DNA from: Brachycybe producta
Taxonomy: Eukaryota > Arthropoda > Diplopoda > Playtdesmida > Andrognathidae
Direction of reading: 5' to 3'
DNA length: 64,000 nt
Assembly (NCBI GenBank): GCA_036925085.1
Contig: JAUPFP010000150.1
Span: forward strand, 1 to 64,000
A model generated the notes under the pieces. The model worked only from the letters and a program-made list of their open reading frames with translations, did not search any database and was not told the DNA's origin. Shown piece by piece: positions 15,001-56,999 of the stretch. The first letter of the stretch is position 1. Each line of letters starts with the position of its first letter. A program made the position numbers and the translations under genes.

Positions 15001-18000
15001 TAACCTAACCTAACCTAACCTAACCTAACCTAACCTAACCTAACCTAACCTAACCTAACCTAACCTAACCTAACCTAACCTAACCTAACCTAACCTAACC
15101 TAACCTAACCTAACCTAACCTAACCTAACCTAACCTAACCTAACCTAACCTAACCTAACCTAACCTAACCTAACCTAACCTAACCTAACCTAACCTAACC
15201 TAACCTAACCTAACCTAACCTAACCTAACCTAACCTAACCTAACCTAACCTAACCTAACCTAACCTAACCTAACCTAACCTAACCTAACCTAACCTAACC
15301 TAACCTAACCTAACCTAACCTAACCTAACCTAACCTAACCTAACCTAACCTAACCTAACCTAACCTAACCTAACCTAACCTAACTAACCTAACCTAACCT
15401 AACCTAACCTAACCTAACCTAACCTAACCTAACCTAACCTAACCTAACCTAACCTAACCTAACCTAACCTAACCTAACCTAACCTAACCTAACCTAACCT
15501 AACCTAACCTAACCTAACCTAACCTAACCTAACCTAACCTAACCTAACCTAACCTAACCTAACCTAACCTAACCTAACCTAACCTAACCTAACCTAACCT
15601 AACCTAACCTAACCTAACCTAACCTAACCTAACCTAACCTAACCTAACCTAACCTAACCTAACCTAACCTAACCTAACCTAACCTAACCTAACCTAACCT
15701 AACCTAACCTAACCTAACCTAACCTAACCTAACCTAACCTAACCTAACCTAACCTAACCTAACCTAACCTAACCTAACCTAACCTAACCTAACCTAACCT
15801 AACCTAACCTAACCTAACCTAACCTAACCTAACCTAACCTAACCTAACCTAACCTAACCTAACCTAACCTAACCTAACCTAACCTAACCTAACCTAACCT
15901 AACCTAACCTAACCTAACCTAACCTAACCTAACCTAACCTAACCTAACCTAACCTAACCTAACCTAACCTAACCTAACCTAACCTAACCTAACCTAACCT
16001 AACCTAACCTAACCTAACCTAACCTAACCTAACCTAACCTAACCTAACCTAACCTAACCTAACCTAACCTAACCTAACCTAACCTAACCTAACCTAACCT
16101 AACCTAACCTAACCTAACCTAACCTAACCTAACCTAACCTAACCTAACCTAACCTAACCTAACCTAACCTAACCTAACCTAACCTAACCTAACCTAACCT
16201 AACCTAACCTAACCTAACCTAACCTAACCTAACCTAACCTAACCTAACCTAACCTAACCTAACCTAACCTAACCTAACCTAACCTAACCTAACCTAACCT
16301 AACCTAACCTAACCTAACCTAACCTAACCTAACCTAACCTAACCTAACCTAACCTAACCTAACCTAACCTAACCTAACCTAACCTAACCTAACCTAACCT
16401 AACCTAACCTAACCTAACCTAACCTAACCTAACCTAACCTAACCTAACCTAACCTAACCTAACCTAACCTAACCTAACCTAACCTAACCTAACCTAACCT
16501 AACCTAACCTAACCTAACCTAACCTAACCTAACCTAACCTAACCTAACCTAACCTAACCTAACCTAACCTAACCTAACCTAACCTAACCTAACCTAACCT
16601 AACCTAACCTAACCTAACCTAACCTAACCTAACCTAACCTAACCTAACCTAACCTAACCTAACCTAACCTAACCTAACCTAACCTAACCTAACCTAACCT
16701 AACCTAACCTAACCTAACCTAACCTAACCTAACCTAACCTAACCTAACCTAACCTAACCTAACCTAACCTAACCTAACCTAACCTAACCTAACCTAACCT
16801 AACCTAACCTAACCTAACCTAACCTAACCTAACCTAACCTAACCTAACCTAACCTAACCTAACCTAACCTAACCTAACCTAACCTAACCTAACCTAACCT
16901 AACCTAACCTAACCTAACCTAACCTAACCTAACCTAACCTAACCTAACCTAACCTAACCTAACCTAACCTAACCTAACCTAACCTAACCTAACCTAACCT
17001 AACCTAACCTAACCTAACCTAACCTAACCTAACCTAACCTAACCTAACCTAACCTAACCTAACCTAACCTAACCTAACCTAACCTAACCTAACCTAACCT
17101 AACCTAACCTAACCTAACCTAACCTAACCTAACCTAACCTAACCTAACCTAACCTAACCTAACCTAACCTAACCTAACCTAACCTAACCTAACCTAACCT
17201 AACCTAACCTAACCTAACCTAACCTAACCTAACCTAACCTAACCTAACCTAACCTAACCTAACCTAACCTAACCTAACCTAACCTAACCTAACCTAACCT
17301 AACCTAACCTAACCTAACCTAACCTAACCTAACCTAACCTAACCTAACCTAACCTAACCTAACCTAACCTAACCTAACCTAACCTAACCTAACCTAACCT
17401 AACCTAACCTAACCTAACCTAACCTAACCTAACCTAACCTAACCTAACCTAACCTAACCTAACCTAACCTAACCTAACCTAACCTAACCTAACCTAACCT
17501 AACCTAACCTAACCTAACCTAACCTAACCTAACCTAACCTAACCTAACCTAACCTAACCTAACCTAACCTAACCTAACCTAACCTAACCTAACCTAACCT
17601 AACCTAACCTAACCTAACCTAACCTAACCTAACCTAACCTAACCTAACCTAACCTAACCTAACCTAACCTAACCTAACCTAACCTAACCTAACCTAACCT
17701 AACCTAACCTAACCTAACCTAACCTAACCTAACCTAACCTAACCTAACCTAACCTAACCTAACCTAACCTAACCTAACCTAACCTAACCTAACCTAACCT
17801 AACCTAACCTAACCTAACCTAACCTAACCTAACCTAACCTAACCTAACCTAACCTAACCTAACCTAACCTAACCTAACCTAACCTAACCTAACCTAACCT
17901 AACCTAACCTAACCTAACCTAACCTAACCTAACCTAACCTAACCTAACCTAACCTAACCTAACCTAACCTAACCTAACCTAACCTAACCTAACCTAACCT

Positions 18001-18415
18001 AACCTAACCTAACCTAACCTAACCTAACCTAACCTAACCTAACCTAACCTAACCTAACCTAACCTAACCTAACCTAACCTAACCTAACCTAACCTAACCT
18101 AACCTAACCTAACCTAACCTAACCTAACCTAACCTAACCTAACCTAACCTAACCTAACCTAACCTAACCTAACCTAACCTAACCTAACCTAACCTAACCT
18201 AACCTAACCTAACCTAACCTAACCTAACCTAACCTAACCTAACCTAACCTAACCTAACCTAACCTAACCTAACCTAACCTAACCTAACCTAACCTAACCT
18301 AACCTAACCTAACCTAACCTAACCTAACCTAACCTAACCTAACCTAACCTAACCTAACCTAACCTAACCTAACCTAACCTAACCTAACCTAACCTAACCT
18401 AACCTAACCTAACCT
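1..18415. repeat. Telomere, (CCTAA)n = (TTAGG)n
   Basis: Uninterrupted tandem array of CCTAA, about 3,680 units, with the C-rich strand on top, so the G-rich TTAGG strand points to the left end as expected at a left telomere. TTAGG is the ancestral arthropod telomerase product. I see three imperfections: two adjacent units lacking T (CCAACCAA at 4491-4498), one T-to-G change at 14516, and one unit lacking a C at about 15384. No TRAS- or SART-like retrotransposon interrupts the array. Confidence 0.99.
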
Positions 18416-18472
18416 GTGACCCGACCCGTGACCCGACCTGTGACCCGACCCGTGACCCGACCTGTGACCCGA
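18416..18472. repeat. Telomere-junction repeat, GTGACCCGAC
   Basis: Immediately inside the last telomere unit are five copies of an 11-base unit alternating CTGTGACCCGA and CCGTGACCCGA. Diverged copies recur as separators inside the subtelomere at 19501-19557 (five GTGACC/ATGACC units) and 19825-19840, where the repeat type switches. It is GC-rich compared with the AT-rich repeat beside it. Confidence 0.9.
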
Positions 18473-19845
18473 TTTTGAAATTTTGAAATTTTGAGATTTT
18501 GAAATTTTGAGTTTTTGAAACTTTGAGATTTTGAAATTTTGCGATTTTGATATTTTGAAATTTTAAAATTTTGAAATTTTGAGATTTTGAGATTTTGAAA
18601 TTTTGAGTTATATTTAAATTTTTAGTAATATTTAAATTTTAAAATTTTGAGATTTTGAGATTTTAAAATTTTGAGATTTAAAGATTTTGAGATTTTGAGA
18701 ATTTGAGGTTTTGAGATTTTGAGATTTTGAGATTTTGAGATTTTGAGACTGAAATTTTAATATTTTGATATTTTGAGATTTTGAGGTTTTGAGATTTTGA
18801 GATTTTGAGATTTTGAGGTTTTGAGATTTTCAGATTTTGAGTTATATTTAAATTTTAAAATTTTGAGATTTTGAGATTTTAAAATTTTGAGATTTAAAGA
18901 TTTTGAGAATTTGAGGTTTTGAGAATTTGAGGTTTTGAGATTTTGAGATTTTGAGGTTTTGAGGCTTTGAGGTTTTGAGATTTTGAGATTTTGAGATTTT
19001 GAGATTTTGAGATTTTGAGTTATATTTAAATTTTGAGTTATATTTAAATTTTAAAATTTTGAGATTTTGAGATTTTAAAATTTTGAGATTTAAAAATTTT
19101 GAGATTTTGAGAATTTGAGGTTTTGAGATTTTGAGATTTTGAGATTTTGAGATTTTGAGATTTTGAGATTTTGAGACTGAAATTTTAATATTTTGATATT
19201 TTGATATTTTGAGAATTTGAGGTTTTGAGATTTTGAGATTTTGAGTTACATTTAAATTTTGAGTTATATTTAAATTTTTAAATTTTGAGATTTTGAGATT
19301 TTAAAATTTTGAGATTTAAAATTTTTGAGATTTTGAGAATTTGAGGTTTTGAGATTTTGAGATTTTGAGGTTTTGAGAATTTAAGATTTTGATATTTTGA
19401 TAATTTAAACTTTTGAGGTTTTGAGATTTTAAGGTTTTGAGATTTTGCGGTTTTGAGATTTTGAGGTTTTGAAAATTTAAGATTTTGATAGTTTGATATT
19501 GTGACCTGACCCGTGACCTGAACCATGACCCAACCCGTGACCTGACCCATGACCCGTTGAGATTTTGAGATTTTGAGATTTTGAGATTTTGAGATTTTGA
19601 GGTTTTGAGATTTTGAGATTTTGAGACAGATTTTGAGATTCTAAAATTTTGAGTTTTTGAGATTTTGATACTTTAAACTTTTGAAGTATTGAGAGTATAA
19701 GATTTTGATATTTTGATATTTTGATAATTTAAACTTTTGAGGTTTTGAGATTTTAAGATTTTCAGATTTTGAGGTTTTGAGATTTTGAGGTTTTGAGAAT
19801 TTACGATTTTGATAGTTTGATATTGTGACTCGACCCGTGACATCA
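18473..19845. repeat. Subtelomeric TTTTGAGA octamer array
   Basis: Degenerate tandem array of an 8-base unit, GATTTTGA, with variants carrying TTTTGAAA, TTTAAA and GAGGTTTT. A longer block containing GAGTTATATTTAAATTTT recurs near 18603, 18838, 19017 and 19246, so the array carries a higher-order duplication of about 180-235 bases. It is split by GTGACC blocks at 19501-19557 and 19825-19840. The complement contains no stop triplet, so long reading frames on the minus strand here have no coding meaning. Confidence 0.93.
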
Positions 19846-22800
19846 TGAAAAAAGTATAGAAAATTGAGTAGAAGTAGAGAAAAGTACAGAAAAATGAAGT
19901 AGAAGTAGAGAAAAGTACAGAAAAATAAAGTTGAAGTGGAGAAAAGTACAGAAAAACGAAGTAGAAGTGGAGAAAAGTACAGAAAAATGAAGAAGTGGAG
20001 AAAAGTACAGAAAAATGAAGTAGAAGTGGAGAAAAGTACAGAAAAATGGAGTTGAAGAAGAGAAAAGTATAGGAAAATGGAGAAGTAGAGAAATGCATAG
20101 AAAATGAGTAGAAGTAGAGAAAAGTACAAAAAAATGGAGTTGAAGTGGTGAAAAGTACAGAAAAATGGAGTTTGTGGAGAAAAGTACAGAAAAATGGAGT
20201 TTGTGGAGAAAAGTACAGAAAAATGTAGTAGAGAAAAGTAGAAAATGGAGTAGAAGTAGAAAAAAGTAGAAAATGGAGTAGAAGTAGAGAAAAGTACAGA
20301 AAAATGGAGTTGAAGTGGAGAAAAGTACAGAAAAATAGAGTTCATGTGGAGAAAAGTACAGAAAAATGGAGTAGTAGAGAAAAGTAGAAAATGGAGTAGA
20401 AGTAGAGAAAAGTACAGAAAAATGGAGTTGAAAAAGAGAAAAGTACAGGAAAATAGAGTAGAAGTAGAAAAAAGTATAGAAAATGGAATAGAAGTTGAGA
20501 AAAGTACAGAAAAATGAAGTTGAAGAGGAGAAAAGTACAGAAAAATGGAATAAAAGTTGAGAAAAGTATAATAAAATGGAGTAAAAGTGGAGAAAAGTAT
20601 AGAAAAATGAAGTTGAAGTTGAGAAAAGTGCAGAAAAATGAAGTAGAAGCGGAGAAAAGTACAGAATAATGAAGAAGTGGAAAAGAGTACAGAAAAATAA
20701 AGTAGAAAAAGAGAAAAGTACAGAAAAATAGAGTCAAAGTGGAGAAAAGTACAGAAAAATGGAGTGAAAGTGGAGAAAAGTACAGGAAAATGGAGTAGAA
20801 GTAGAGAAATGCATAGAAAATTGAGTAGAAGTAGAGAAAAGCACAGAAAAATGAAGTAGAAGTAGAGAAAAGTACAGAAAAATGGAATGAAAGTGGAGAA
20901 AAGTACAGAAAAATGGAGTAAAAGTGGAGAAAAGTACAGAAAAATGTAGTAGAGAAAAGTAGAAAATGGAGTAGAAGTAGAGAAAAGTACAGAAAAATGG
21001 AGTTGAAGTGGAGAAAAGTATAGAAAATGAAGTAGAAATGGAGAAAAGTACAGAAAAATGGAGTTGAAGAGAAAAGTACAGGAAAATGGAGTAGAAGTAG
21101 AGAAAAGTATAGAAAAAGGAGTAGAAGTAGAGAAAAGTACAGATAAATGAAGTTGAAGTGGAGAAAAGTACAGAAAAATAGAATAAAAGTTGAGAAAAGT
21201 ATAATAAAATTTAGTAAAGTGGAGAAAAGTATAGAAAAATGAAGTAGAAGTGGAGAAAAGTACAGAAAAATGAAGAAGTGGAGAAAAGTACAGAAAAATA
21301 AAGTAGTAGAGAAAAGTACAGAAAAATGGAGTTGAAGAGAAATGCATAGAAAATTGAGTAGTAGAGAAAAGCACAGAAAAATGAAGTAGTAGAGAAAAGT
21401 ACAGAAAAATGGAGTTGAAGTGGAGAAAAGTACAGAAAAATGGAGTTCATGTGGAGAAAAGTACAGAAAAATGAATTAGTAGAGAAAAGTACAGAGAAAT
21501 GGAGTTGAAGTGGAGTGGTATAGAAAAACGAAGTAGAAGTGGAAAAAAGTTTAGAAAAATGGAGTTGAAGTAAAGAAATGTACAGAAAAATTGATTTAAA
21601 AGAGGAGAAAAGTACAGAAAAATGGAGTTGAAGTAGAGAAAAGTACAGAAAAATGGAATAAAAGTGGAGAAAAGTACAGAAAAATGGAGTTGAAGTAGAG
21701 AAAAGTACAGAAAAATGGAATGAAAGTGGAGAAAAGTACAGAAAAATGGAGTAAAAGTGGAGAAAAGTACAGAAAAAGGTAGTAGAGAAAAGTAGAAAAT
21801 GGAGTAGAAGTAGAGAAAAGTACAGAAAAATGGAGTTGAAGTGGAGAAAAGTATAGAAAATGAAGTAGAAATGGAGAAAAGTACAGAAAAATGGAGTTGA
21901 AGAGAAAAGTACAGGAAAATGGAGTAGAAGTAGAGAAAAGTATAGAAAATGGAGTAGAAGTAGAGAAAAGTACAGAAAAATAGAATAAAAGTTGAGAAAA
22001 GTATAATAAAATTTAGTAAAGTGGAGAAAAGTATAGAAAAATGAAGTTGAAGTGGAGAAAAGTATAGAAAAATGAAGTAGAAGTGGAGAAATGTACAGAA
22101 AAATAAAGTAGAGGTAGAGAAAAGTACAGAAAAATGGAGTTGAAGAAGAGAAATGCATAGAAAATTGAGTAGAAGTAGAGAAAAGCACAGAAAAATGAAG
22201 TAGTAGAGAAAAGTACCGAAAAATGGAGTTGAAGTGGAGAAAAGTACAGAAAAATAGAGTTCATGTGGAGAAAAGTACAGAAAAATGAATTAGTAGAGAA
22301 AAGCACAGAAAAATGGAGTTGAAGTGGAGTGGTATAGAAAAACGAAGTAGAAGTGGAGAAAAGTTTAGAAAAATGGAGTTGAAGTAAAGAAATGTACAGA
22401 AAAATTGATTTAAAAGAGGAGAAAAGTACAGAAAAATGGAGTTGAAGTAGAGAAAAGTACAGAAAAATGGAATAAAAGTGGAGAAAAGTACAGAAAAATG
22501 GAGTTGAAGTAGAGAAAAGTACAGAAAATTGGAATGAAAGTGGAGAAAAGTACAGAAAAAGGGAGTAAAAGTGGAGAAAAGTACAGAAAAATGGAGTAGA
22601 AGTAGAGAAAAGTACAGAAAAATGGAGTTGAAGTAGACAAAAGTACAAAAAAATGGAATGAAAGTGGAGAAAAGTACAGAAAAATGAAGTTGAAGTAGAG
22701 AAAAGTACAGAAAAATGAAATGAAAGTGGAGAAAAGTACAGAAAAATGGAGTAAAAGTGGAGAAAAGTACAGAAAAATGGAGTAGAAGTAGAGAAAAGTA

Positions 22801-24880
22801 CAGAAAAATGGAATGAAAGTGGAGAAAAGTACAGAAAAATGGAGTAGAAGTAGAGAAAAGTACAGAAAAATGGAGTTGAAGTAGACAAAAGTACAGAAAA
22901 ATGGAATGAAAGTGGAGAAAAGTACAGAAAAATGGAGTAAAAGGGCTAGAAAAGTACAGAAAAATGGAGTAAAAGTGGAGAAAAGTATAGAAAAATGAAG
23001 TTGAAGTGGAGAAAAGTACAGAAAAATGAAGTAGAAGTGGAGAAAAGTACAGAAAAATAAAGTAGAGGTAGAGAAAAGTACAGAAAAATGGAGTTGAAGA
23101 AGAGAAATGCATAGAAAATTGAGTAGAAGTAGAGAAAAGCACAGAAAAATGAAGTAGTAGAGAAAAGTACCGAAAAATGGAGTTGAAGTGGAGAAAAGTA
23201 CAGAAAAATAGAGTTCATGTGGAGAAAAGTACAGAAAAATGAATTAGTAGAGAAAAGTACAGAAAAATGGAGTTGAAGTGGAGTGGTATAGAAAAACAAA
23301 GTAGAAGTGGAGAAAAGTTTAGAAAAATGGAGTTGAAGTAAAGAAATGTACAGAAAAATTGATTTAAAAGAGGAGAAAAGTACAGAAAAATGGAGTTGAA
23401 GTAGAGAAAAGTACAGAAAAATGGAATAAAAGTGGAGAAAAGTACAGAAAAATGGAGTTGAAGTAGAGAAAAGTACAGAAAATTGGCATGAAAGTGGAGA
23501 AAAGTACAGAAAAATGGAGTAAAAGTGGAGAAAAGTACAGAAAAATGGAGTAGAAGTAGAGAAAAGTACAGAAAAATGGAGTTGAAGTAGACAAAAGTAC
23601 AGAAAAATGGAATGAAAGTGGAGAAAAGTACAGAAAAATGAAGTTGAAGTAGAGAAAAGTACAGAAAAATGAAATGAAAGTGGAGAAAAGTACAGAAAAA
23701 TGGAGTAAAAGTGGAGAAAAGTACAGAAAAATGGAGTAGAAGTAGAGAAAAGTACAGAAAAATGGAATGAAAGTGGAGAAAAGTACAGAAAAATGGAGTT
23801 AAAGTAGAGAAAAGTACAGAAAAATGGAATGAAAGTGGAGAAAAGTACAGAAAAATGGAGTTGAAGTAGAGAAAAGTACAGAAAAATGGAATGAAAGTGG
23901 AGAAAAGTACAGAAAAATGGAGTAAAAGTGGAGAAAAGTACAGAAACATGGAGTAGAAGTAGAGAAAAGTACAGAAAAATGGAGTTGAAGTAGACAAAAG
24001 TACAGAAAAATGGAATGAAAGTGGAGAAAAGTACAGAAAAATGAAGTTGAAGTAGAGAAAAGTACAGAAAAATGGAATGAAAGTGGAGAAAAGTACAGAA
24101 AAATGGAGTAAAAGTAGAGAAAAGTACAGAAAAATGGAGTAAAAGTGGAGAAAAGTATAGAAAAATGAAGTTGAAGTGGAGAAAAGTACAGAAAAATGAA
24201 GTAGAAGTGGAGAAAAGTACAGAAAAATGGAGTTGAAGAAGAGTAATGCATAGAAAATTGAGTAGAAGTAGAGAAAAGCACAGAAAAATGAAGTAGTAGA
24301 GAAAAGTACCGAAAAATGGAGTTGAAGTGGAGAAAAGTACAGAAAAATAGAGTTCATGTGGAGAAAAGTACAGAAAATGAATTAGTAGAGAAAAGTACAG
24401 AAAAATGGAGTTGAAGTGGAGTGGTATAGAAAAATGAAGTAGAAGTGGAGAAAGGTTTAGAAAAATGGAGTTGAAGTAAAGAAATGTACAGAAAAATTGA
24501 TTTAAAAGAGGAGAAAAGTACAGAAAAATGGAATTGAAGTAGAGAAAAGTACAGAAAAATGGAATAAAAGTGGAGAAAAGTACAGAAAAATGGAGTTGAA
24601 GTAGAGAAAAGTACAGAAAATTGGAATGAAAGTGGAGAAAAGTACAGAAAAATGGAGTAAAAGTGGAGAAAAGTACAGAAAAATGGAGTAGAAGTAGAGA
24701 AAAGTACAGAAAAATGAAGTTGAAGTAGAGAAAAGTACAGAAAAATGGAATGAAAGTGGAGAAAAGTACAGAAAAATGGAGTAAAAGTGGAGAAAAGTAC
24801 AGAAAAATGGAGTAAAAGTGGAGAAAAGTATAAAAAATGGAGTAAAAGTGGAGAAAAGTATAGAAAATGGAGTAGAAGTA
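19846..24880. repeat. 31-bp subtelomeric minisatellite
   Basis: About 5 kb of a 31-base unit built around GAGAAAAGTACAGAAAAATG followed by GAGTWGAAGTR, with indel variants. Rare marker variants show higher-order copying: GAAATGCATAGAAAATTGAG occurs near 21338, 22150 and 23104 (with a variant near 24244), and GAAAAATTGATTTAAAAGAG near 21581, 22400, 23354 and 24492. Blocks of roughly 0.8, 0.95 and 1.14 kb have therefore been duplicated. The unit is purine-rich on the plus strand, and its complement has no stop in any frame. That explains the long F/S/L-rich minus-strand frames, such as one of 577 residues at 19641-21374. Confidence 0.95.
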
Positions 24881-25380
24881 GAGAAGGGTCTCCCTAAAAC
24901 GAATAAAATAAAATAAACTGGAATCTTAGAAGACATTATGACACTTGTGGCTCCCTTCACTTGCTGAAAATATTTTTCAAACCAGAAATATTTTTTAAAT
25001 CGGAAAAATTGATAATTGATATTTAATAAGTAATTTCTATGGTAATTGCTTTATTTAATAATTTCATGAATTAATATCAAATTTTATAAACCATTTCAAA
25101 CACTGTGTAACGATCATATCGATTATCGATTTGCATTAACATGTAGTGTTGTTTTTCATAAGGAAGGGGTTGGCAAGCTCAAGGACCACCCAGGGCGGCA
25201 CAAACTAGCAATGCCACTGTTAAAATGGACACAAAACGGCACTGAAAATGAACACAAAATGGCGCTAAACATGGGCACAAATTGTCTATAATATTTTTTC
25301 AAAAAATAGCAAGCAATGAAAATCTAGGTGCCCTGAAAATCGTATTCACCTTATTAATTAAGATTAATAAATAATATATA
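24881..25380. other. AT-rich spacer between subtelomeric arrays
   Basis: The minisatellite stops at about 24880 and sequence becomes mostly unique and AT-rich. Around 25190-25290 there are three diverged pieces of the form AAAATGGACACAAAACGGC, and no plausible coding region. The satellite with GGCGCCATCT cores begins at 25381. Confidence 0.6.
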
Positions 25381-25664
25381 GATGCAGTGGCGCCATCTAT
25401 TGTTTACATTTCCATTAATAAGATGGACGACTAGAAAATTGTATTCAAACGTCATGAAGATCAATAAACAATATACAGATGCAGTTGCGCCATCTATTGT
25501 TTACATTTTCATCGCTAAAATTAACGACAAGAAAATCGTATTCAAATGTCATGAAGATAAAGAAACGATATACAGATGCAGTGGCGCCATCTATTGTTTA
25601 CATTTTTATTACTAAGATGGACGACTAGAAAATTGTATTCAAACGTCATGAATAGATCTGTGCG

Positions 25665-25676
25665 CCACCAGGGGCG
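25665..25676 (+). promoter_or_regulatory. Second CTCF-like motif in the array interruption
   Basis: CCACCAGGGGCG lies in the non-satellite interruption. It matches the GC-rich vertebrate-type CTCF core except for one missing G in the G-run. The match is on the plus strand, opposite to the satellite cores. Motif resemblance is the only evidence. Confidence 0.3.
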
Positions 25677-28600
25677 AAAACACTGCCGCCAGTGATTTTG
25701 AAGCTAATAACGCTGCCGCTCACTGCTTGTAATTTTTTCAAAAAACCCGCCGCCACTCGTCACCGGTGTATGACTGGCGGCCGCGAATTCAAATTTTGTT
25801 TTGGTTGGTTTTGTTTCAAAAACTGTCATAGGAATGAAATGATACCATATTTGATATTTATCAATTTCAATTTATATCGATATTTACCACACTCACTATA
25901 TTGATATATCGATATATTTGTTCAATAGGATCAATCTCAGATGCTGGTAGTTGCCGCCGCTGCTCGTATTTACTCTCACCTGCTGCTGCCGATCAATATG
26001 CTATGTCACACAGGTCTAGTCATGAAGATTAATAAACAATTTACAGATGCAGTGGCGCCATCTATTATTTACATTTTTATTTCAAAGAAGAATGACTAGA
26101 AAATCATTCAAACGTCATGAAGATTAATAAATGATATACGAATGCAGTGGCGCCATCTATTGTATACATTTTCATAACTGAGAAGACCAGCATAAAAGAA
26201 AATCGAATTCCCCGTTAAGATTATAAACGATATACAAATGCAGTGGCGCCATCTATTGTTTACATTTTCATTACTGAGATGAACGACATAAAAGAAAATC
26301 AAATTCATGGTAAGATTATAAACGATATAAAGATGCAGTGGCGCCATCTAGTGTTTATATTTTCATTACTAAAATGAACAAGAAAATCGTATTCAAACGT
26401 CATGAAGATTAATAAACGATATACAGATGCAGTGGCGCCATCTATTGTTTACATTTTCATTACTGAGATGAACGACATAAAAGAAAATCGAATTCGCGTT
26501 AAGATTATAAACGATATACAGATGCAGTGGCGCCATCTATTGTTTACATTTTCATTACTAAGAAGACTGCCATAAAAAAAATCGAATTCACATTAAAATT
26601 ATAAACGATATACAGATGCAGTGGCGCCATCTAGTGTTTATATTTTCATTACTAAAATGAACAAGAAAATCGTATTCAAACGTCATAAAGATTAATAAAC
26701 GATATACAGATGCAGTGGCGCCATCTATTGTTTACATTTTCATTACTGAGATGAACGACATAAAAGAAAATCGAATTCGCGTTAAGATTATAAACGATAT
26801 ACAGATGCAGTGGCGCCATCTATTGTTTACATTTTCATTACTAAGAAGACTGCCATAAAAAAAATCGAATTCACATTAAAATTATAAACGATATACAGAT
26901 GCAGTGGCGCCATCTAGTGTTTATATTTTCATTACTAAAATGAACAAGAAAATCGTATTCAAACGTCATGAAGATTAATAAACGATATACAGATGCAGTG
27001 GCGCCATCTATTGTTTACATTTTCATTACTGAGATGAACGACATAAAAGAAAATCGAATTCGCGTTAAGATTATAAACGATATACAGATGCAGTGGCGCC
27101 ATCTATTGTTTACATTTTCATTACTAAGAAGACTGCCATAAAAAAAATCGAATTCACATTTAAATTATAAACGATATACAACGTCGATACATAGATGCAG
27201 TGGCGCCATCTATTGTTTACATTTTCATTACTGAGAGGACCGCCAGAAAAGAAAATCGAATTTAGGTTAAGATTCTAAACGATATATGGATGCAGTTGGG
27301 CCATCTATTGTTTACATTATTATTACTAAGAAGACCGCCATAAAAGAAAATCAAATTCACATTAAGATTATAATTTATAAACGATATACAGATGCAGTGG
27401 CGCCATCTAGTGTTTATATTTTCATTATTAAAATGAACAAGAAAATCGTATTCAAACGTCATGAAGATTAATAAACGATATACGGATGCAGTGGTGCCAT
27501 CTATTGTTTACATTTTCATTACTAAGAAGACCGCCATAAAAGAAAATCGAATTTACATTAAAATTATAAACGATATACAGATACAGTGGCGCCATCTATT
27601 GTTTAGATTTTCATAACTGAGAAGACCGTCATAAAATAAAATCGAATTTACATTAAAATTATAAACGATATACAGATGCAGTGGCGCCATCTATTGTTTA
27701 CATTTTCATTACTGAGAGGACCGCCATAAAAGAAAATCGAATTCACATTCAAATTATAAACGACGTACAGATACAGTGGCGCCATCTATTGTTCAGATTT
27801 TCATAACTGAGAAGACCGCCATAAAAGAAAATCAAATTTACATTAAAATTATAAACGATATACAGATGCAGAGGCGCCATCTATTGTTTACATTTTCATT
27901 ACTAAGAAGACCGCCATAAAAGAAAATCGAATTCACATTAAAATTATAAACGATACACAGATGCAGTGGCGCCATCTATTGTTTACATTTTCATTACTGA
28001 GAGGCCCGCCATAAAAGAAAATCGAATTCACATTCAAATTATAAACGATATACAGATGCAGTGGCGCCATCTATTGTTTACATTTTCATTACTAAGAAGA
28101 CCGCCATAAAAGAAAATCGAATTCACATTAAAATTATAAACGATACATAGATGCAGTGACGCCATCTAGTGTTTATATTTTCATTACTAAAATGAACAAG
28201 AAAATTGTATTCAAACGTCATGAAGATTAATAAACGATATACAGATGCAGTGGCGCCATCTATTGTATACATTTTCATTACTGAGAGGCCCGCCATAAAA
28301 GAAAATCGAATTCACATTCAAATTATAAACAATATACAGATGCAGTGGCGCCATCTATTGTTTACATTTTCATTACTGAGAGGCCCGCCATAAAAGAAAA
28401 TCGAATTCACATTCAAATTATAAACGATATACGGATGCAGTGGCGCCATCTATTGTATACATTTTCATAACTAAGAAGACCAGCATAAAAGAAAATCGAA
28501 TTCGCGTTTAGATTATAAACGATATACAGATGCAGTGGCGCCATCTGTTGTTTACATTTTCATTACTGAGATGAACGACATAAAAGAAAATCATATTCAT

Positions 28601-29227
28601 GGTAAGATTATAAACGATATACAGATGCAGTTACGCCATCTATTGTTTACATTGTCCTTACTAAGAAGGACAATAAGAAAATCGTATTCACATCATGAAT
28701 TTTAATAAACGATTAACAGATTCACATTAAAATTATAGAAGATATATACAGATGCAGTAGCGCCATCTATTGTTTACATTTTCATTACTAAGAAAAGCCA
28801 TAAAAGAAAATCGAATTCACATTAAAATTATAAACGATACACAAATGCAGTGGCGCCATCTATTGTTTACATTTTCATTACTGAGAGGACCGCCATAAAA
28901 GAATATCGAATTTACATTAAAATTATAAACGATATACAGATGCAGTGCCGCCATCTATTGTTTACATTTTTATTACTAAAATTAAGACAAGAATATCGTA
29001 TTCTAACGTCATTAAGATTGATAATAGATATATGGATGCAGTGGCGCCATCTATTGTTTACATTTTCATTAAATGAAATAAACGACAAGAAAATCGTATT
29101 CAAACGTCAAGATTCATGAAGATTAATAAACGATATACTGATGCAGTTGCGCCATCTATTGTTTACATTTTAATTACTAAGATGAACACAAGAAAATCGT
29201 ATTCAAAAGTCATGAAGATTAATAAAC

Positions 29228-29235
29228 GATATACG
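29228..29235. repeat. Left 8-bp target-site duplication of the P-like element
   Basis: GATATACG, part of the normal satellite monomer, sits directly against the element's left terminus. The identical octamer flanks the right terminus at 33094-33101. Eight-base duplications are typical of P and hAT transposons. Confidence 0.93.
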
Positions 29236-29727
29236 TTGAGCCCTATATTAACAGAGTTATGTCAATGAGTGATGCTTTTTGATTCATTGCTGCAATCACG
29301 TGGGAGCTGTACGCCATTTTGAATCCTAAGAATGGCATGCATTCAATGAAAGTCTATGGCAGCATATCATTTGGCAGTAAGCATTATTTAAATCTATTTA
29401 ACTTAAGTATTAAATTAAATGAATCTATTTAAATAAAATAATATTAAACAAATTGTAGATAAAAGTTTTGCAGTATTTTGCACAGATCTTTGTAAAATAA
29501 ATGCACTGTAGTTACTGTACAGTAGTTTAGCTTTCCAAATTAATCCTTTTGAAAGTTTCACAAATATGTTTATGATACGTTTTTAAAATCAGAAATCTGT
29601 TTGACATGTAGGGGTTGAAAATTCATAAGCAATACAGTTTGTGAATACAAATTACAAAAGCAATACAGCTTGGTAGATCATGTCTTTTTTTTTACTTTTC
29701 ACATGTAATTTTGTGATATATGTTACA

Positions 29728-32448
29728 ATGCCTTGTTGTGTCACCGTGAATTGCAACAACAGGACAGAAAAGGGTTTCCATTTGTTTCGTTTCCCTGCTG
29801 ACCCTCAACGGAAATCATTGTGGGTAACAAAAGTTCGGCAAGATTGTTGGGAACCAAATGGTAGTTCTTATCTATGTGAAGTAAGATGACATTTCAAAAT
29901 AATTGTGGACCTAATATATTTCATATAATAAACAGATATTCCCTGAAAATATAACAATTAATGCATTTTAGGCTCATTTTGATGACAAACAATTTCAAGC
30001 AAATTGCCAGGATGGCCACAAGCTCCTGAAACTGAATGCAATACCAAAAGTTTTTTCACATAAAATTATTCCACATAAAAGAAAATCTCCAAAGAAACCA
30101 GGCAGAGAATAGGATGATATTGTTCATGCAAAAAAAAAGCTGAAGTTTGTTCATCCATATTCAGTATCACCATCAAAATGGCCTAAACATTCAAAATCTG
30201 GTAGCCAGCTCGAACTTGAAGGTTTGGTTTAATTTTAATAAATCATTTACAAATCAATACTGACTGGGATCTGTTATTTTATTTCATTTTGTTTAGATGG
30301 AGATACGAGTGGGAACTATAATCAACATGTCACAGATGGAATTCAAAATGCTGCAACAGATGTGTCCATCAAAAGCTAACTGCCAGTTGTCCTCATTATT
30401 ACAGGCAAGGTTGAAACACATGACTAATAGAATGAAGATGATGAAAACAAAGTATCAGAAGATCATGTTCAGCAATAAATTGCTTTGTAAACAAGTTAAA
30501 AGACTGGAGACAGAGAATGAAAAGCAGTGTGCTGCATTAAAAGATATTTTCAATTCATATCAACTAGCATCTCTCTAAAGAAGATCAAAGGATTTAAGTG
30601 GTCATCATGTACAGTAAAAAAGGCACTGTGACTTCATTTTTCTTGTGAAAAATCAGGGTATGATCTGATGTTACAGCAAAAGCAACCACTACCAGGATAT
30701 TGCACACTGCAGTGATGAATAGAAGGGATAAAATTTGAAAGTGGCATATTACATGAGGTGTTCTGTTTTATGAAGTTCAAAGTAGATAAAATGAATGGAC
30801 AACAAAAGGAATGCTGCCTGGCACTGGATTAAATGTCAATTGATCCACATATAGAATATGACTCAAGGAGCAAACAAATGATGGGGAATGTAACACTACC
30901 AAACCACAATGGTGTTGCAACCCATGCTTTGGTATTCTTGTTGGGTGGAATCAGTACTCATTGGAAACAGACCATAGCATATTATTATACAGAAAAGAGC
31001 ACTGATATGTCAGTATTGAAGGAGATAATTGTTAAGATTCTTTTCTTTGCTCAAGACATTAGTTTGCATGTGGTATGTGTTACATCTGACATGGGTAGTG
31101 TTAGCAGAGGTATGTGGAAAGCTTTAGGAATTGTCTGTTGGAAGAACAGCAGAACAGTCAACAAAGTTGCACATCCTTTCAATGCCAGTGAATTTCTTTA
31201 CTTCATGCCTGATGTTCCACATGCCTTTAAAAACATTCGATATGCACTTATTAACAACAAAACTTATTTTGCCAGAAAATATTGTTGTAAACTACAACCT
31301 TCCAGCAGATGCAGTTTCAATTGAACCACTTCACCAACTACAGAAGCTACAAGGTGACAGAGCTGAAACTAGTTCCTAAGCTTTCTGAAGACCATCTGTC
31401 TCCAGGCCATTTTGACAAGATGAATGTCTCAATGGCTATTCATATATTAAGTCGTACACTTAGTTCTGCATTGCGCTATCTTGTTCATTCGGAACACTGG
31501 GATCAAGGCATTTTTACAACAGCATGGTTTCTTGAATTAGTGAGCAAGTGGCATTCATTAATGTCATCTCATCATCCTGTACTTGCATTGAGTTGTTTAA
31601 ACCCAGAAAAGTATAGTGAGACTATAGCTTTTCTCAAATCAGTTATTGCTGTATTTGAAGATATAAAAATTAGCAACGAATGGAAACCAATCCAAACAGC
31701 TGTCATCCTAGCCACAACCACAGTTTTGGATCTTCAAGAAGAATTTCTCAGTTACAGAGGCTACAAGTTTTTACTTACTTCTAGACTAACCCAAGATTGT
31801 TTAGAATTTTTTTCCATGTGTCAGGCTAAGTTGCACAGTATTTGAATTACACAGCATCATCAAGCTATGAAGAAGATGACAGATCCTTTTTAGCTAATTT
31901 TCTAGATAATCCAAACCTTTGCAAAAATGAAACTAATGGGTTTTCTGCAGACATGCACCTATGTTTCCAAGCACCAACTGTACAGCCAACAAATGTAATT
32001 GAAGTTGTAGATGAAATTGACAAGTCTATAATTTATTCTTTGGCATGATGCATCATTTGCAAAATCCAGCAGAACAATGTGCATTGTCATGTGTCTCAAC
32101 ACAATGAAAAGTGTTCAAGTTGAAGTCAATTCCAGTATTGCACAATTTGTGGCTGAGAAAGAATATGTGGCTGGCACCCTTACTCATCCAACAAAAGCTG
32201 CATTCAATTTGGCTATGGATTTGGAAAATATTTTTCAAATTGAGAAGCCCACTCTTATAAATGATCGTGAAGACATGAGAAACTGGCTCATGAAAATAAT
32301 AGATAAAACAGCCCATTGGAACTTAATTTCAGATTGCCACAAAATTAAAAAGAAATTCATTAGTAAGTTCCTTGGATTTCGGCTGCAAATTTTTGTAAAG
32401 TGGCATAGAGACAAATACAAGAAAGAAGAAAAACAACTGCGTGAATGA
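29728..32448 (+). pseudogene. P-element-type THAP transposase, disrupted
   Basis: A cut-and-paste transposase that would bind the element's DNA through an N-terminal THAP zinc finger. Exon 1 (29728-29880) starts MPCCVTVNCNN and ends with the Cys of LCE. After an intron (29881-29971), exon 2 continues AHFDDKQF, completing the C2CH set, then NAIPKVF, the usual AVPTIF-like end of THAP domains. A coiled coil follows at about 30297-30578. The catalytic-core stretch has LALD at 30821-30829, SDMGSV at about 31087 and MPDVPHAFKN at about 31205, all P-family landmarks. Visible lesions: TAG at 30110-30112; a frame change near 30380; frameshifted sequence at 30580-30800; TAA at 30830-30832 directly after the first catalytic Asp; and further frame changes near 31320, 31845 and 32050. 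The remaining pieces reach about 32448. Confidence 0.9.
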
Positions 32449-32534
32449 GAATTGTTTGGTAGCTAATCAGTTGCTATGTGAAAAGCAGTTAAGAAAATTC
32501 GTTAAAAAATTAAAAAAATGTCAACATATTTGTG

Positions 32535-32618
32535 ATTTTTCAAAATTCTTTAATATGAATTATTTTGGTACATTTTTAAATGTACCAAAATAATTCATAT
32601 TAAATAATTTTGAAAAAT
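32535..32618. repeat. Long AT-rich hairpin inside the P-like element
   Basis: Arms of about 40 bases are nearly perfectly complementary around a 2-base loop at 32576-32577. The inner arm reads AATATGAATTATTTTGGTAC and its complement follows. It lies about 90 bases after the last transposase-like frame and could act as a transcript-end structure or as subterminal transposon DNA. Confidence 0.85.
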
Positions 32619-33093
32619 TAACTATAGTGCATTTATTTTACAATATTATGTACGTACTGTAAATCTTTCCTCTTCCATTGTGTAAATTAGTTTAGTATTA
32701 TTTTAATTTAATATTCATTTACTTTTAATACTTTAATTTAATATTCATTTACTTTTAATACTTTAATTAAATCGATTAATTTAATTTAATTTATTTAATT
32801 AAATATTAATTTATATTATTTTTTATTTATTTTATTATACTATTTTACATTTATATTAAATTTGTTTTATTTATATTTAAATTTAAATAATCTAATTAAA
32901 TTTAAATTATATTTATATTATTTTATTTTATATTATTTAAATTTAAATAGATTAATTTAATTTATTTAATTAAATTTAATATAAGGTTCGTAAGGCACTT
33001 TCATTATTGTCACATTTGCAGTAAATAGTAGGCTTAAGACTCAAAATGGCGTTCAAATTTTCATTGACGTTACTCTCTTAATATGGGGCTCTA

Positions 33094-33182
33094 GATATAC
33101 GGATGCACTGGCGCCATCTATTGTTTATATTTTAATTACTAAGATGAACGACAAGAGAATCGTATTCAAACGTCATGAATGT
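33094..33182. repeat. Right target duplication plus last satellite monomer
   Basis: GATATACG (33094-33101) repeats the left flank of the transposon. It runs straight into GGATGCACTGGCGCCATCTA and the rest of one monomer, ending near GTCATGAATG. This is the innermost unit of the 94-95 bp satellite and marks the boundary with the gene-bearing region. Confidence 0.92.
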
Positions 33183-43855: not shown

Positions 43856-44941
43856 ATGAATCGCTTGTTCGGAAAAGGGAAACCGAAAGAACCGCCGCCG
43901 AATTTGACGGATTGCATTTCAGGGGTCAGTCTTGTTATTAATAATAACAATTAATAATCACCTTCTTTCTTGCTTGGGTGTGACGACGATCAAAATGTTT
44001 TTTTTTCTGTTCCCGTTTAACGAACAGGTTGACGGTAGAGCAGAGTCGATAGACAAAAAAATTTCTCGACTGGATGCAGAACTCAAGAAGTACAAGGACC
44101 AGATGAAGAAGATGCGCGATGGACCAGCAAAGGTCAAAGGTCGTTCATTCGTTCCCAATGATACAACGACTCATAGGTATCTCTCTTCCTTCCTGGCGCG
44201 CGTGTAGAACGCAGTCAAACAGAAGGCGTTGCGCGTCCTCAAACAGAGAAAAATGTACGAACAACAGTACAACAACCTGCAGCAACAGTCGTTCAACATG
44301 GAACAGGCGAATTTTGCGACTCAGACCCTTAAGGACACACACACTACCGTTCAAGCAATGAAGACGGGCGTCAAGGAGATGAAAGCGGCTTACAAGAGGG
44401 TCAACATCGATGACATAGAGGTAGGACAGGGTCAACTCTTTTGTTACACACACCCCTATGTCTCTCATAGCACTCTGTATCTTACCATTTGATGTTTTCG
44501 GTAAACAGGACGTTCAGGATCAGCTGGAAGACATGTTGGAGCAGGCGAATGAAGTCCAAGAGGCACTGGGAAGAAGTTACGGGATGCCAGAAATGGATGA
44601 CGACGAACTGGAAGCAGGTTTTCAAACGATATCACATTTCACTCTCGAAATGAACAAACTCGATTGTTCTTTTTTTGTTTTCTTTCTAGAACTGGAAGCA
44701 TTAGGTGACGAAATCGGACTGGACGAAGACGCTTCTTATCTGGATGAAGCCGTCAGCGCTCCGAATGCGCCCACTAAGGAACCGGGAGCCGAAAGCGTCA
44801 CCAACAAGGCAATTTGAATACCATTTCAATGCACTTTAACCGCTGCTGCTATAAGATGTTTTTTTTTTCTTTCTTTCTTTCTACGATTAGGATGGGGTTT
44901 TGGTGGACGAATTCGGTTTGCCTCAGATACCTGCAACGTAA
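43856..44941 (+). CDS. CHMP5: Charged multivesicular body protein 5 (ESCRT-III)
   Basis: Six exons (43856-43924, 44028-44132, 44208-44420, 44509-44617, 44690-44808, 44891-44941) encode 221 residues, against 219 in human. It begins [20 protein letters not shown] and ends [16 protein letters not shown], both diagnostic. CHMP5 is a cytosolic ESCRT-III accessory subunit in multivesicular body sorting. Its C-terminal half binds LIP5/VTA1, which activates the VPS4 ATPase. The Snf7 fold is visible as a basic helical N-terminal half ([20 protein letters not shown], coiled coil) and an acidic C-terminal half ([20 protein letters not shown]). Intron 5 begins GC, not GT (AAG then GCAATT after 44808), and ends AG at 44890. 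Only that join restores [12 protein letters not shown]. Poly-A signals AATAAA lie near 45082. Its neighbour aralar is convergent. Confidence 0.97.
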
Positions 44942-45179
44942 TCGACACACAACTTCTTCTGGATCGAACATTATTTTCCTCTCGTCGTTTTTAAACATCT
45001 CGTCACAATGACGATTTCTTTCTAGCTTTCTATCTTTTCGTACTTAATCGCTTGTGTCAATGTCACTATAAGATTTGTAAATAATAAATATATCGACATT
45101 AAAATGTTTTACAAACAAGATGATTTTTGAACTCTGTGATTATTCCTCAGTTTCAGTAGAGCAGAGCAACAATAACGAG

Positions 45180-45420
45180 AATTTGAAAGTGTTGTTAGAA
45201 ACTAGAATGAACAATAATTAAAAAAATAGTTAGCTTCAGGATGGATATATTTTCAGACTCAAATAAAAAGCTTATTTTAAAAGATGTTTATCAGCATGAA
45301 AAATAACCTTAATATTAATGATCGAGTGAGCCACCCTTCTAGTTTCTAAAACACATTCACGTTTGTCTCCCTGGATGACTGAAAACCAGAACAAAATAAG
45401 CCGTTTACACATCAAAACCA
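45180..45420 (+). repeat. Dispersed intron repeat, copy 4 (intergenic, palindromic)
   Basis: Left arm AAAGTGTTGTTAGAAACTAG, then right arm CACCCTTCTAGTTTCTAAAA in reverse complement, with AAAAGATGTTTATCAGCATG before the right arm. It lies between CHMP5 and aralar. Confidence 0.75.
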
Positions 45421-45860
45421 CCGTTAAGGTTTTTGGTCCCCTCATAAAACAAAATCCAATCTCGCAACAGGTAACAACAATCCCTCACATTTTATTCTTG
45501 ATATTTAACTGTCTTTTTAACAACTTTCCCTCGACCACCGCTCCCCCCACAGAGACGTCATTAATCTCTCAGCGAGTCGCGGTCATTAACGTGGAATTTA
45601 ACGTTATATATATTATAATAAATACCTTGCAATAGCATCAAACAGGTAAAAGTTAAAACAACGATGCTCATAGGTAATTAATTGAACACACATTCAAACA
45701 ACGCTGTTGGGGCTTTTGGAACTCAATTCTTCTTCCTCTTTGTAAAATCACACAACAGAATAAAATAATTTGTTAAAGCTATTTATCACTACGGTCTTTT
45801 TGTTTTAATAATCGGTCCACTTTTAAGATTGTGGAGGAACCTGAATCCTTTTTTTTTTCT

Positions 45861-45875
45861 CCTAACCTAACCTAA
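45861..45875 (+). repeat. Interstitial telomere-like triplet
   Basis: Three CCTAA units in the aralar 3' flank, following a T-run. A slightly longer run lies at 61323. Such short tracts can be chance, repair insertions or ancient end remnants. Confidence 0.85.
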
Positions 45876-45999
45876 TCCCCCCTACCTTCCTCCATGTTCG
45901 ATGTAAGGTTCCCACTACAATGCAGGCATTGTCCTACTGTTTCTAAAGACTAACTCACACTCGTTGCCAAAGTCGTTCGGTTTTAATCTGAACGGTTTT

Positions 46000-48900
46000 C
46001 TAATTGACGACCGTCGTGCGGAACTTTGGCAGAAACAGACCAAACTTGGATTCTATACCAGAAAAAACCGGGATGGCTAAACGATAGCCTCCTATGTGGT
46101 CGGGATTGTCCGATTTGATCTCTCCTGCATGGATGGGAACCGTTGCTGTTGAACCGGAAGGACGGCTTAGAAAAGAAAGAGAAATCGATAGAAAAACGCA
46201 AAATGTAAAGACCTACGTCGAAAGGAATAACTTACTAGCCACCAAAGTCGACATAAAACAGACGCTGCAGAACTTCGTAAGTTGCCAGAGTGACTCCGAA
46301 TTGCGGTGACGAACGGAAAACACGAGCTTACAAACCAAAAAGAAAAGAAAACACGTTCCAATGAGGTGAACGCGATTCGATCCGTCTCAAATAATTAAAA
46401 AGTGTACCTGCCGTTCCCTTCCAAAATGCCCGTCCCCCTTCTTCGGCCCATATCTTCCGAGTTGCATCCAAAACGCCCGAGTAAGTAGTTTGACCGGCTC
46501 TCGCTTGAACTTGAAGGCGCGTCTTGATGACGTCGGCGGGCGTCACCAATGAAGCCGCAGGAATACCTAACCACGTAACAAATCACCCAAAAAAAACGTA
46601 TTAACAGGGGTTTATTTTCGATCCGATGTAAGGGAGTTAAATGAATTACGCAACCTGCGATGGCTGCTGCGACCAGAAGAGACAAAGGACTGTTGTAACC
46701 GTTTTCATCGGCCAACGCGGATTTGAAATGAGCATAAGCGGGGAAATATATTGCAGAGAACGGGATGTCACGTAAGAAACATGCTCTAGCTCCCTAAACG
46801 AATAATTAAAACGCTCATAGATAGTAATTCTTCTGAGAAACCACCGAATCGAACGGGAGTCACCACAACCTTATAAAGTCCCAAGAATCCGAGATCCTTG
46901 AGCACCTGGACGGCACTGACCCTCGAAGTCGATGCGATTTCACCGGCCACCTGAAGCCGAATCTTTACTATCTCAATGGGATTGGTGAAAATCACCTGAG
47001 AGCCACCGGCCTACATTCGATAAATTCAAACGAATCGTTTGCAAAGTGGTTTTAGGAAGTCCATATCAAAGTGTAATTATACACATCCTCCGGCTGCAAA
47101 CTCCGCCCAAAGAGCGATGTCTCCCTTATCCCCCCTCAGTTTATCCCTCATGAGATCATTCACCTACAATTGACATAAAAAAATTCCATAATTGAACGAC
47201 AACAGTTTAAAAAAAAAGTGCGGAGACTAACTGTCAATTTGATGGCCTTCTCGGGCGCAACTCCCATCAGTTGCGGAACTAAACCACGGTAAAGTCCGGC
47301 CACTCCCTCGTGACGAATCACTTTCTTGAAACAGTCGAAACTGTTCTTGTACATCAATTCACCGATGTAAGAACCAGAACGTTGATTTTGAAGACGTGTT
47401 TTCACCAGGTCGATCGGATAAACGGCCGTCGCGCCAGTCGCTTTTAAAAACGATAACACAATTTTGTATTTAAAAAAACACGATTGAAAGGAAGTAGAAA
47501 ACACCTCCAGCAATCGATCCGAGCGTGAATCTGTAAGCATTCTCCATGATCTGAACTAAAACGCCCCGTTCATCCCGACTCTTTAGTAGACAAACAAGAG
47601 GAAAGAAACAAGAACGGCATAGCCATCAAAAAGCTAAACTCGGCTTCCTTTTATTCGGCATCAAACCTGAACAGCTTTGACCTCCCTAATGGACCTCGTG
47701 AGCGAGCGCGTCATTCGCTCCGGAGCCAACCTCTCGAGATCAGAATAAGTCACTCGGCTGCCCAACAAAGAAAACAATTCAATTCAACTGCCACATGTTT
47801 TAAATCAATTGAGTCACTCCAGCATTGGCACGCGCTACCCTTGGTGCAATGTTAAGTGAAATAATGATATTTCCAAAAACATGGTCTCGATTCTAACTAC
47901 AAATCCCTCTTCAAACTTTGTTTCGAATAACAATTGAAGCTGCAATTGCTTCTTGAATGTTGTGGTCAAGTTTTAAGATCTTTTATTTTCGTTTAAAATT
48001 GTATGAAAGAAAAAAAAACCCCTTTAAATATTAATTTAAAGGGATTTTTATTTTATACGATTTTGAATGAATTATGCTAATTTTCCTGACCCATCATGTT
48101 CAAGACCATCGAGCTCAGAAAAGGTCCACTTTCCCCAACCACTTTCCCACATGCTTTTTAGAAAAATGGTTTGTATTTTTTCAGACTATTACAGGGAATT
48201 TCGTGACGTTTCGAACTGGCGTTTGGCGTTGCTAGAGCAACTTCGAAACAGCCAAATCGAAGACCCACGTCGAGTGACACGTGTAACACTGGAGTCTCTC
48301 TATAGGCTCTGAACAAAGATTGTTATTCAAATGATCATGACCCCTGACCCCGTCTGATGGAAGAATCCGACCAGTTGAAAGAGAATGTCGACTTCGAGCG
48401 GAGTGAACTGCGACATCTGTTGGGCCGAGTGAAGAAACTCCTCTGAATAACAGATTCAAAAGTGAAATTAATATATCTCCACAGTCAGATTCCGAAAAAG
48501 GAAAGGAGGAGTTTACACGTTACCTTTGGTGACCTCCAGGTCGTGACTGCCTTTCGAGAAAGTCAAATAAATCTTTTTAGTTAGCTCCATGTTATTGAGG
48601 AGTGAATTAAAAGCCATGAAGTAGGGAAAACTAACAATGTGACCTCCAGATCCACCTCCGGCCGCCTTTTAGCATTTCAAACGGTAATCATTAATTAAAA
48701 AGACCTACAACATCGCTCCGCAATTTCGGTCGTAATTGGCGAATCACAAAATACTGACGGCGACGAGGTTTTCTCGGACATCCTTCGTAAGAAGGTGACT
48801 CTTGATCAGAGTCATTATGTCGTTGAAATCCAGGGCCGTGATCTGTCCGGAATGGTTCTTATCGAACCTCTTGAAAGCCTGAATTGCATGTTCCTCGTGA

Positions 48901-50251: not shown

Positions 50252-51895
50252 GTTTCAATTTGAAATTGAATTGTGTCTCAAGTGGAATTGTTCACTTCTC
50301 TTTCAACCGAATTAATGAGTCTCTTCTTCTTTCGCGGTCACTTTTCAGGGGGGGGGGTCACTTTAGGTCAACCAGATACATAAATGGGGAGGGTGGAAGT
50401 TAAGGAGGAGGTTGTATAATGAGGGCGAAAGAAAGAAGGAGTAAATTCGCTGAGAAAACGAGAGAGAGAGAGAGAGAGAGAGATCCGATCTGAACAGTAC
50501 TCTAGCTGAAGGACGTTCTTCTAACTTCGTTACCCAATGACGATTATGATGAACCAATTGATAAATCATATAGAAATAAAGGCGTCCTTCTGTCTCTCTT
50601 CACTTTTTTTGTTTCGTCATCTTTTTCTTATTCAAAGGAAAAGTCCTTCAAATTCACGATTACCAGGTTATAATATCGTTTCTGCTTCTAACTTTATTTC
50701 CGAATTTCAGTTTTATTCTTCGATCTTTGCTTCTGATGACGTCACCCCGACACACACACCTCTGTAATGTAAATTATTTCTACAACACCTTCTCCTCCCA
50801 CCGTACAGTAGGTGTACTGTTCTTCCAAAGGTATATCTGTCACAGCGTTTGAAGAACGCTTGTGACGTCGAAGGGGTGAACGTAAAATTAAGGAATGTGT
50901 CATTTGTAGTCTGAAAGAAAAGGGATTAGATCAAAAGTTTCAACAAAAGGGTTTCCCCACCATTCTTTTATTATTGTCCCCGTTTTGAATCAGACTAATA
51001 AATGGCATAAGCCCATATTTACAGGTCTACCCTGCTGACGTCATAAGCTGCTACTTAGGATGGCTCAAGTATGTAATTATATCCATGACCTTTGACCTCC
51101 CACCAGGTTGAACATGTCACGTCATCATCTCTTTATCTATTATATTTTGTACTAATAATTTTTAATCTAATAATCAAACACACAGAAAGAAAACACAAGA
51201 AAAAGATCATTTACAAAGTTTAAAAATGTATAGGGAGAAATATAAGGAGGGGCCCTGTGAGGATGGGACCTGGGCCCTGAGGGTAGAAGAAGAGAGAGGG
51301 GGTCAAAGGTGCAGGCCATTAGGAAAGAGTTTGTTTGTGCATTTTTTTATATAGAAAAAACTATCTAAGCTTGCATAACAAATGCATTAATAATACAATT
51401 AATGACAAGGTGATTAGGAGGATGAAGGGGGAGGGGGAGTATGTTAATTAGTATACCTCTTGACACAAGGCAACAGTGAATAAGTTGAATCCGTCCATCG
51501 TGGTGGGCCTTAAGGATTGAGGGACCCCCCACGATGAACCCCTGAATTCCTCCTTTGATTCATTTTTCCTCTTCATCGGAATCTGAATAAAGAGAATCGA
51601 AATTAATCCCACAAATTCTATTTAAAACAAAAAGTCGCACACTTTTCTATACGAAGACAAATGCATTAAAATGCATTTAAATTAGTAGAAATAGAAATAA
51701 AACAATAATTAAAATGAAGACACAGTTTCCCCTCCTTCCCTCACCCACCCCCTAAACAAGGCGCTCATGTGGTGCAGTGAATCATTGAGACAGGGGCAAC
51801 TACAGCCACACTTTCGCAATTAATTATTATATTGTGTTATTATTAGTACAGAAGCAATAGGAAGGTGAAACCCAAGAATACGAAACTAGTACTAA

Positions 51896-51929
51896 CACAG
51901 AATAAGGATATATATATCCTTATTCTGTG
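51896..51929. repeat. Perfect 34-bp palindrome
   Basis: CACAGAATAAGGATATA followed immediately by its exact reverse complement with no loop, flanked by TACTAA on the left and GGTACTAAC on the right. It could be a cruciform-prone site, a fused pair of transposon ends or a transcription-factor dimer site. Confidence 0.9.
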
Positions 51930-52664: not shown

Positions 52665-52668
52665 AGAG

Positions 52669-56995: not shown

Positions 56996-56999
56996 AAAT

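Follow-up and report, generated by a model that had tools for sequence, protein, structure and literature searches.

At the low end of contig C150 of Brachycybe producta, does the satellite that borders the telomere carry a binding site for the architectural protein CTCF in each of its monomers, as a sequence-only reading had proposed, or does the likeness have another origin? C150 is a 143,661-base contig in a 295-Mb assembly, and the window, meaning the whole 64,000-nucleotide stretch analysed here, is its low end. Our preferred answer, to which we assign a probability of about 0.5, is that the core AGTGGCGCCATCTATTG is a predicted CTCF-type binding site that occurs approximately once per monomer of a subtelomeric satellite.

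Layout of the chromosome end

The contig opens with an 18.4 kb CCTAA telomere array (positions 1 to 18415; read as TTAGG from the minus strand and called as a tandem repeat with 99% matches), and the interval between telomere and satellite is occupied by 12-bp, 8/18-bp and 31-bp subtelomeric repeats (18412 to 24885, called as tandem repeats with no strand assigned). The satellite starts 6.9 kb from the telomere and is tandem, with a called period of 94-97 bp. The region 25381-33182 had been described as satellite throughout; instead, it comprises three satellite blocks with insertions of 366 and 3858 bp between them. The first three monomers, of 95/97 bp, lie on the plus strand at 25360 to 25652, as defined by the tandem repeat call and anchored monomers, and are followed by a MITE-like insertion (25653 to 26018, no strand assigned) with short inverted ends TAGAYCTGTG. 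The main block of 33 anchored 95-bp monomers (26019 to 29235, plus strand) is organised in 190- and 285-bp higher-order units, and ends at a P-type (THAP/TNP-like) transposon with imperfect inverted ends (29236 to 33093, plus strand), past which a final plus-strand monomer was recognised by satellite match (33094 to 33180). On either side of each insertion, 8 bp of satellite sequence are exactly duplicated (GTCATGAA for the MITE-like element, GATATACG for the transposon), which rules out a single uninterrupted array; since both insertions entered satellite sequence, the final monomer is part of the same array. Together they account for 4224 of the 7802 bases, or over half.

The open frames of the P-type transposon are split over several pieces. 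Separate frames match the THAP, TNP-like RNase H N-terminal and TNP-like GTP-binding insertion domains, and a domain search with a fourth open-frame piece returned no match. The 366-bp MITE-like element has more than 20 related copies elsewhere in the genome at 85-88% identity among the matches listed. Further downstream, at 44208-60556, lie ordinary animal genes with matches to Snf7, a mitochondrial carrier, Sgf11 and a homeodomain, together with a Hus1 match that falls below its cut-off.

A search for the same satellite at other chromosome ends, which the sequence-only reading had suggested as a check, placed it in plus-strand orientation close to the low ends of seven further contigs (C224, C79, C50, C94, C30, C21 and C138), 7.8 to 58 kb in, giving same-stranded arrays near the low end of eight contigs with C150 included. 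CCTAA repeats were seen at the low end of C50, a companion repeat (CGTGACCCGACC) on C79, C21, C138 and C94, and the same 8-, 12- and 31-bp repeats behind masked sequence on C224, whilst neither CCTAA nor the companion repeat was seen in the first 500 bases of C30. The repeat order of the C150 subtelomere recurs on C224 and C79. The 95-bp repeat is thus a subtelomeric satellite, that is, a tandem array near telomere repeats that is common to several chromosome ends. One inverted partial monomer is also present on C94, and C15 has an internal copy. On C50, a different subtelomeric satellite of 183 bp lies on both sides of the 95-bp array in opposite orientations (C50:17225-20027 and 22813-24243).

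The CTCF-like core and its conservation

Monomers of the C150 array were anchored on GCCATCT (n = 37) and scored against the 14-position consensus SYGCCMYCTRSTGG, the reverse complement of the CTCF consensus CCASYAGRKGGCRS as supplied by the earlier reading. Matches of 12/14 were found in 30 monomers, 13/14 in four and 11/14 in three (at 26057, 27300 and 28635). The proposed fit of 12-13 positions on the minus strand was therefore borne out in 34 of the 37 anchored monomers, all 34 in one orientation, and the broader statement that every monomer carries the core stands with the qualification that three reach only 11/14. A profile search of the array returned 39 stretches, some of them partial, from which we estimate that approximately two monomers lack the GCCATCT anchor. 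The common core departs from the consensus by a T at the S position, which is meaningful, and by a T for the last G, which is weaker, hence its score of 12/14.

Scoring with an approximate human CTCF matrix yielded 34 CTCF-like 19-mers of 11.5 to 18.7 bits on the minus strand between 25388 and 33127, mostly 94-97 bp apart. With this matrix, every one of the 34 array sites of at least 11 bits was on the minus strand (34/34), the common satellite core scored 14.3 bits and an AGTG variant, represented by four sites and recurring with the 285-bp higher-order unit, scored 18.7 bits. At the same threshold and with the same human matrix, no sites were detected in the telomere, in 18416-25339 or inside either insertion, and four were detected in the remaining 30.8 kb of the window beyond the array. 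When the 3611 bp of satellite were shuffled 50 times, the mean was 0.04 sites of at least 11 bits and the maximum was one.

The satellite had also been described as variable except for this one stretch. Conservation was assessed on 116 of 128 profile hits (12 short ones were dropped) from nine contigs (C150, C224, C79, C50, C30, C94, C21, C138 and C15), of which 93 were distinct; the retained rows include two with seven core differences that are probably not true monomers. Among the 93 distinct monomers, the 14-bp core agreed with the consensus at 0.965, compared to 0.849 for the remaining positions, or 0.898 for these if gaps are disregarded. Of 79 windows ranked by conservation, that of the core came 4th and was overlapped by the top window; by array it came 5th on C150, 2nd on C224 and 14th when the seven other arrays were pooled (17th with gaps ignored). 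Once gaps are ignored, GAAAATC and other monomer stretches are equally conserved, which, with the rank of 4th, excludes the core as the sole conserved stretch. The earlier reading had named as refuting a core conserved no more than the rest of the monomer; the core is more conserved on average, but not uniquely so, and homogenisation, visible in adjacent 286-bp units that are 100% identical, blurs this comparison and weakens any claim of selection made from within the array.

The same core in dissimilar repeats

A second satellite, with units of 37-41 bp, carries the same core. Its arrays have plus-strand orientation close to three low ends (C3, C30 and C1) and minus-strand orientation close to two high ends (C217 and C43), so that at all five judgeable ends (5/5) the motif faces the nearer end of the contig; hits on C107 and C254 were excluded from this orientation count. 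A telomere was seen at only one of the five, C3, which is CCTAA-tipped. Near the ends of C3, C43 and C217 there is also a solitary unit in which the core is reversed and points away.

Counts across the genome were compared with those of the same pattern reversed, a control that preserves base composition but not dinucleotide order, and they pool repeat-borne and singleton sites. Chance expectations throughout come from such reversed counts and from the shuffles. Under this comparison SYGCCMYCTRSTGG occurred 818 times (21 reversed), GGCGCCATCTAKTG 514 times (0 reversed), GCGCCATCTNNTG 3035 times (544 reversed), GCGCCCYCTRNTGG 248 times (0 reversed) and GCGCCCTCTATTGH 115 times (0 reversed), and the count for GCGCCCYCTRSTGH, 125 against one reversed, indicates that the last G is dispensable. 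Flanks were then compared for 97 dispersed sites, the first-listed matches of four pattern searches, in which C1-C9 are over-represented. With the core masked, these sites clustered into a family designated MITE-A (28 sites), further clusters of 9, 5, 5 and 3, four pairs (8 sites) and 39 singletons. Visual inspection suggests that about five of the 39 singletons belong to families (three to MITE-A, two to another listed family), and the MITE-A consensus itself stayed alone in the clustering because of the offset rule applied. As 58 of the 97 sites fall in repeat clusters, much of the motif excess is repeat-borne and part of it is not.

MITE-A is an old dispersed family of approximately 100 bp that includes TTTAGCTCTAAGTAGAGGTGGCGCCATCTATTGGCTACACTCAGC and contains the CTCF-like core GGTGGCGCCATCTATTGG; a copy within the window (52285-52317) scores 18.2 bits with the human matrix. 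A query with its downstream flank gave 41 matches, of which 36 were aligned and 22 were kept after removal of duplicates and of copies below 50% upstream identity, a filter that favours the flanks as well as the core; four further retrieved stretches were left out. In these 22 copies, agreement was 0.89 over the core, 0.75 upstream, 0.82 in the adjoining downstream stretch and 0.85 further downstream; six copies show a consensus-compatible C at the M position, and six show an A, contrary to the consensus, in place of the last G. The two satellites and MITE-A share an identical core, and a consensus-compatible core is found in two more dispersed families, which resemble the satellites in the degenerate consensus only and not in letters, and in a 177-bp tandem repeat (C1:2711200-2712400). 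Five copies of the latter carry CTGCCATCTAGTGG, a 14/14 match to the consensus, and its unit also contains ACCGGAAGTT, which we take to be ETS-like. In a core-masked test of seven consensuses (the 95-, 41- and 37-bp satellites, MITE-A, the two dispersed families and the 177-bp repeat), the lowest p among 21 pairs was 0.045 (the 41-bp satellite against one dispersed family), approximately what chance would give, and the 41- and 37-bp satellites compared at p = 0.075. No similarity thus remains by which the satellites could be recognised as decayed MITE-A copies.

The main rival to a CTCF-type site is inheritance without function, whereby a fragment of roughly 17 bp from an old mobile element (GGTGGCGCCATCTATTGG in MITE-A) was captured when the satellites formed and was kept by homogenisation, its likeness to a CTCF site being idle at the telomere. 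We regard this as possible, if on balance doubtful. The exact stretch common to the satellites and MITE-A is 16-17 bp, longer than the 14-bp consensus, and so fits shared descent as well; satellites and MITE-A both have T rather than the consensus G/C at the S position, and the two identical adjoining 286-bp units attest to homogenisation. However, neutral decay would have had to spare the core alone, given that nothing outside it can be aligned when the satellites are compared with MITE-A or the 95-bp repeat with the 37-bp one, and there are families that spell the same consensus in other letters (GCGCCCCCTGGTGG, CTGCCATCTAGTGG and GCGCCATCTGGTGG).

It is improbable that the core is instead read by another zinc-finger protein, such as YY1/PHO, or by a transposase. 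The YY1/PHO core is CCAT, and GCGCCATCT overlaps a YY1-like GCCAT, but the enriched variants GCGCCCTCT and GCGCCCCCT have C for the A of CCAT, which fits the M of the consensus and not YY1; we downgraded this candidate on account of such variants lacking CCAT. Several mobile families contain the core internally, as a transposase site might, although a single transposase sits poorly with a core found in different families and at singleton loci with unlike flanks. Least probable of all is a fortuitous resemblance to a CTCF site of some arbitrary conserved stretch in a homogenised satellite, for which the equally conserved stretches elsewhere in the monomer could be cited, since coincidence is contradicted by the monomer matches, by the shuffle mean of 0.04 and by the same core recurring in dissimilar repeats and at singleton loci far above the reversed-pattern control.

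CTCF in the host and comparison with known systems

The predicted CTCF-type site has a candidate reader, as the genome encodes a CTCF orthologue on C16 in which eleven fingers align to human; identity is 70% across human fingers 4-6 and 44% across fingers 7-11. At the contact residues (-1, 2, 3 and 6), the core-reading fingers 3, 4 and 5 are identical to human and finger 7 is similar (S to T, V to I), whilst finger 6 differs (QGTM to QNSA). In CTCF structures, the DNA around the S position is contacted by finger 6, whose change here may explain the T that is common there in this genome. The CTCF reading is favoured by the orthologue, the motif enrichment, the presence of the core in dissimilar repeats, the co-oriented arrays near several contig ends and the better-kept core of MITE-A. 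It is weakened by the T at the S position, the altered fingers 6 and 7, the many enriched sites that are repeat-borne, the reversed units on C3, C43, C217 and C94, the internal copy on C15, and a core that is not uniquely conserved. Separately, long open frames with C2H2 zinc-finger matches were observed densely clustered at C33:1.89-2.11 Mb, as secondary matches to the CTCF fingers.

On the CTCF reading, CTCF would occupy many of the core sites in the satellite. The CCASYAGRKGGCRS strand runs 5' to 3' towards the telomere, and a motif that points at the telomere places the N-terminal side of CTCF towards it. The array would then stop cohesin or chromatin states arriving from the telomere side, not from the interior, and might separate telomeric from chromosomal chromatin, support telomere-directed transcription of the kind found at human 17p-type subtelomeres, or both. 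The full proposal, that telomere-facing CTCF barriers are built from at least two unrelated satellites with one motif per short monomer, that many repeat families converged on the same site and that finger 6 accepts T at the S position, is speculative and, taken whole, unlikely.

Repeat-borne CTCF sites (PMC3368268) and human subtelomeric CTCF sites (PMC5727389) are already known. Among the records listed in a search of open-licence papers, we found no short satellite in which almost all monomers have a CTCF-type site and which is echoed by a second, dissimilar satellite, and no CTCF-bearing satellite in arthropods. Retroelements have spread CTCF sites in mammals, with ChIP-seq evidence (PMC3368268), and the D4Z4 macrosatellite is described as a CTCF-dependent insulator of 3.3-kb units whose function was tested (PMC2639723). 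Like the former, the motif-carrying repeat families here disperse a site through the genome, but they also include subtelomeric satellites and MITE-like elements, with sites that are predicted. Ours shares with D4Z4 a tandem organisation, a place close to a chromosome end and a link to CTCF, here predicted, but has units of 95 bp rather than 3.3 kb (PMC2639723). Open chromatin of an annelid contains the CTCF motif more often than any other, mostly at promoters, so that CTCF is not necessarily architectural in every invertebrate (PMC7854359). If satellites and dispersed repeats prove to share one architectural-protein motif, the present genome offers a clear case in which they share nothing else detectable.

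The closest comparison is with human 17p-family subtelomeres, where CTCF sites lie at TERRA start regions and CTCF, cohesin and TERRA have been measured (PMC5727389). The orientation expected of a human-type arrangement was found at C150, with 34/34 sites on the minus strand and the telomere at the low end. As in the human case (PMC5727389), the motif in the arrays of both satellites is directed towards the nearer contig end, whereas the solitary unit points away. The two systems differ in that human 17p has two motifs approximately 35 bp apart, compared to approximately 34 motifs approximately 95 bp apart here, in a TTAGG telomere context and in an unrelated repeat (PMC5727389); unlike the measured sites of 17p and the tested function of D4Z4 (PMC5727389, PMC2639723), ours are predicted from sequence. 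Should CTCF bind these arrays, the reason for its presence at telomeres could be tested by comparing unrelated satellites that do the same job, and the link between CTCF and chromosome ends known from human cells would extend to a distant animal lineage, where it would be built from different DNA.
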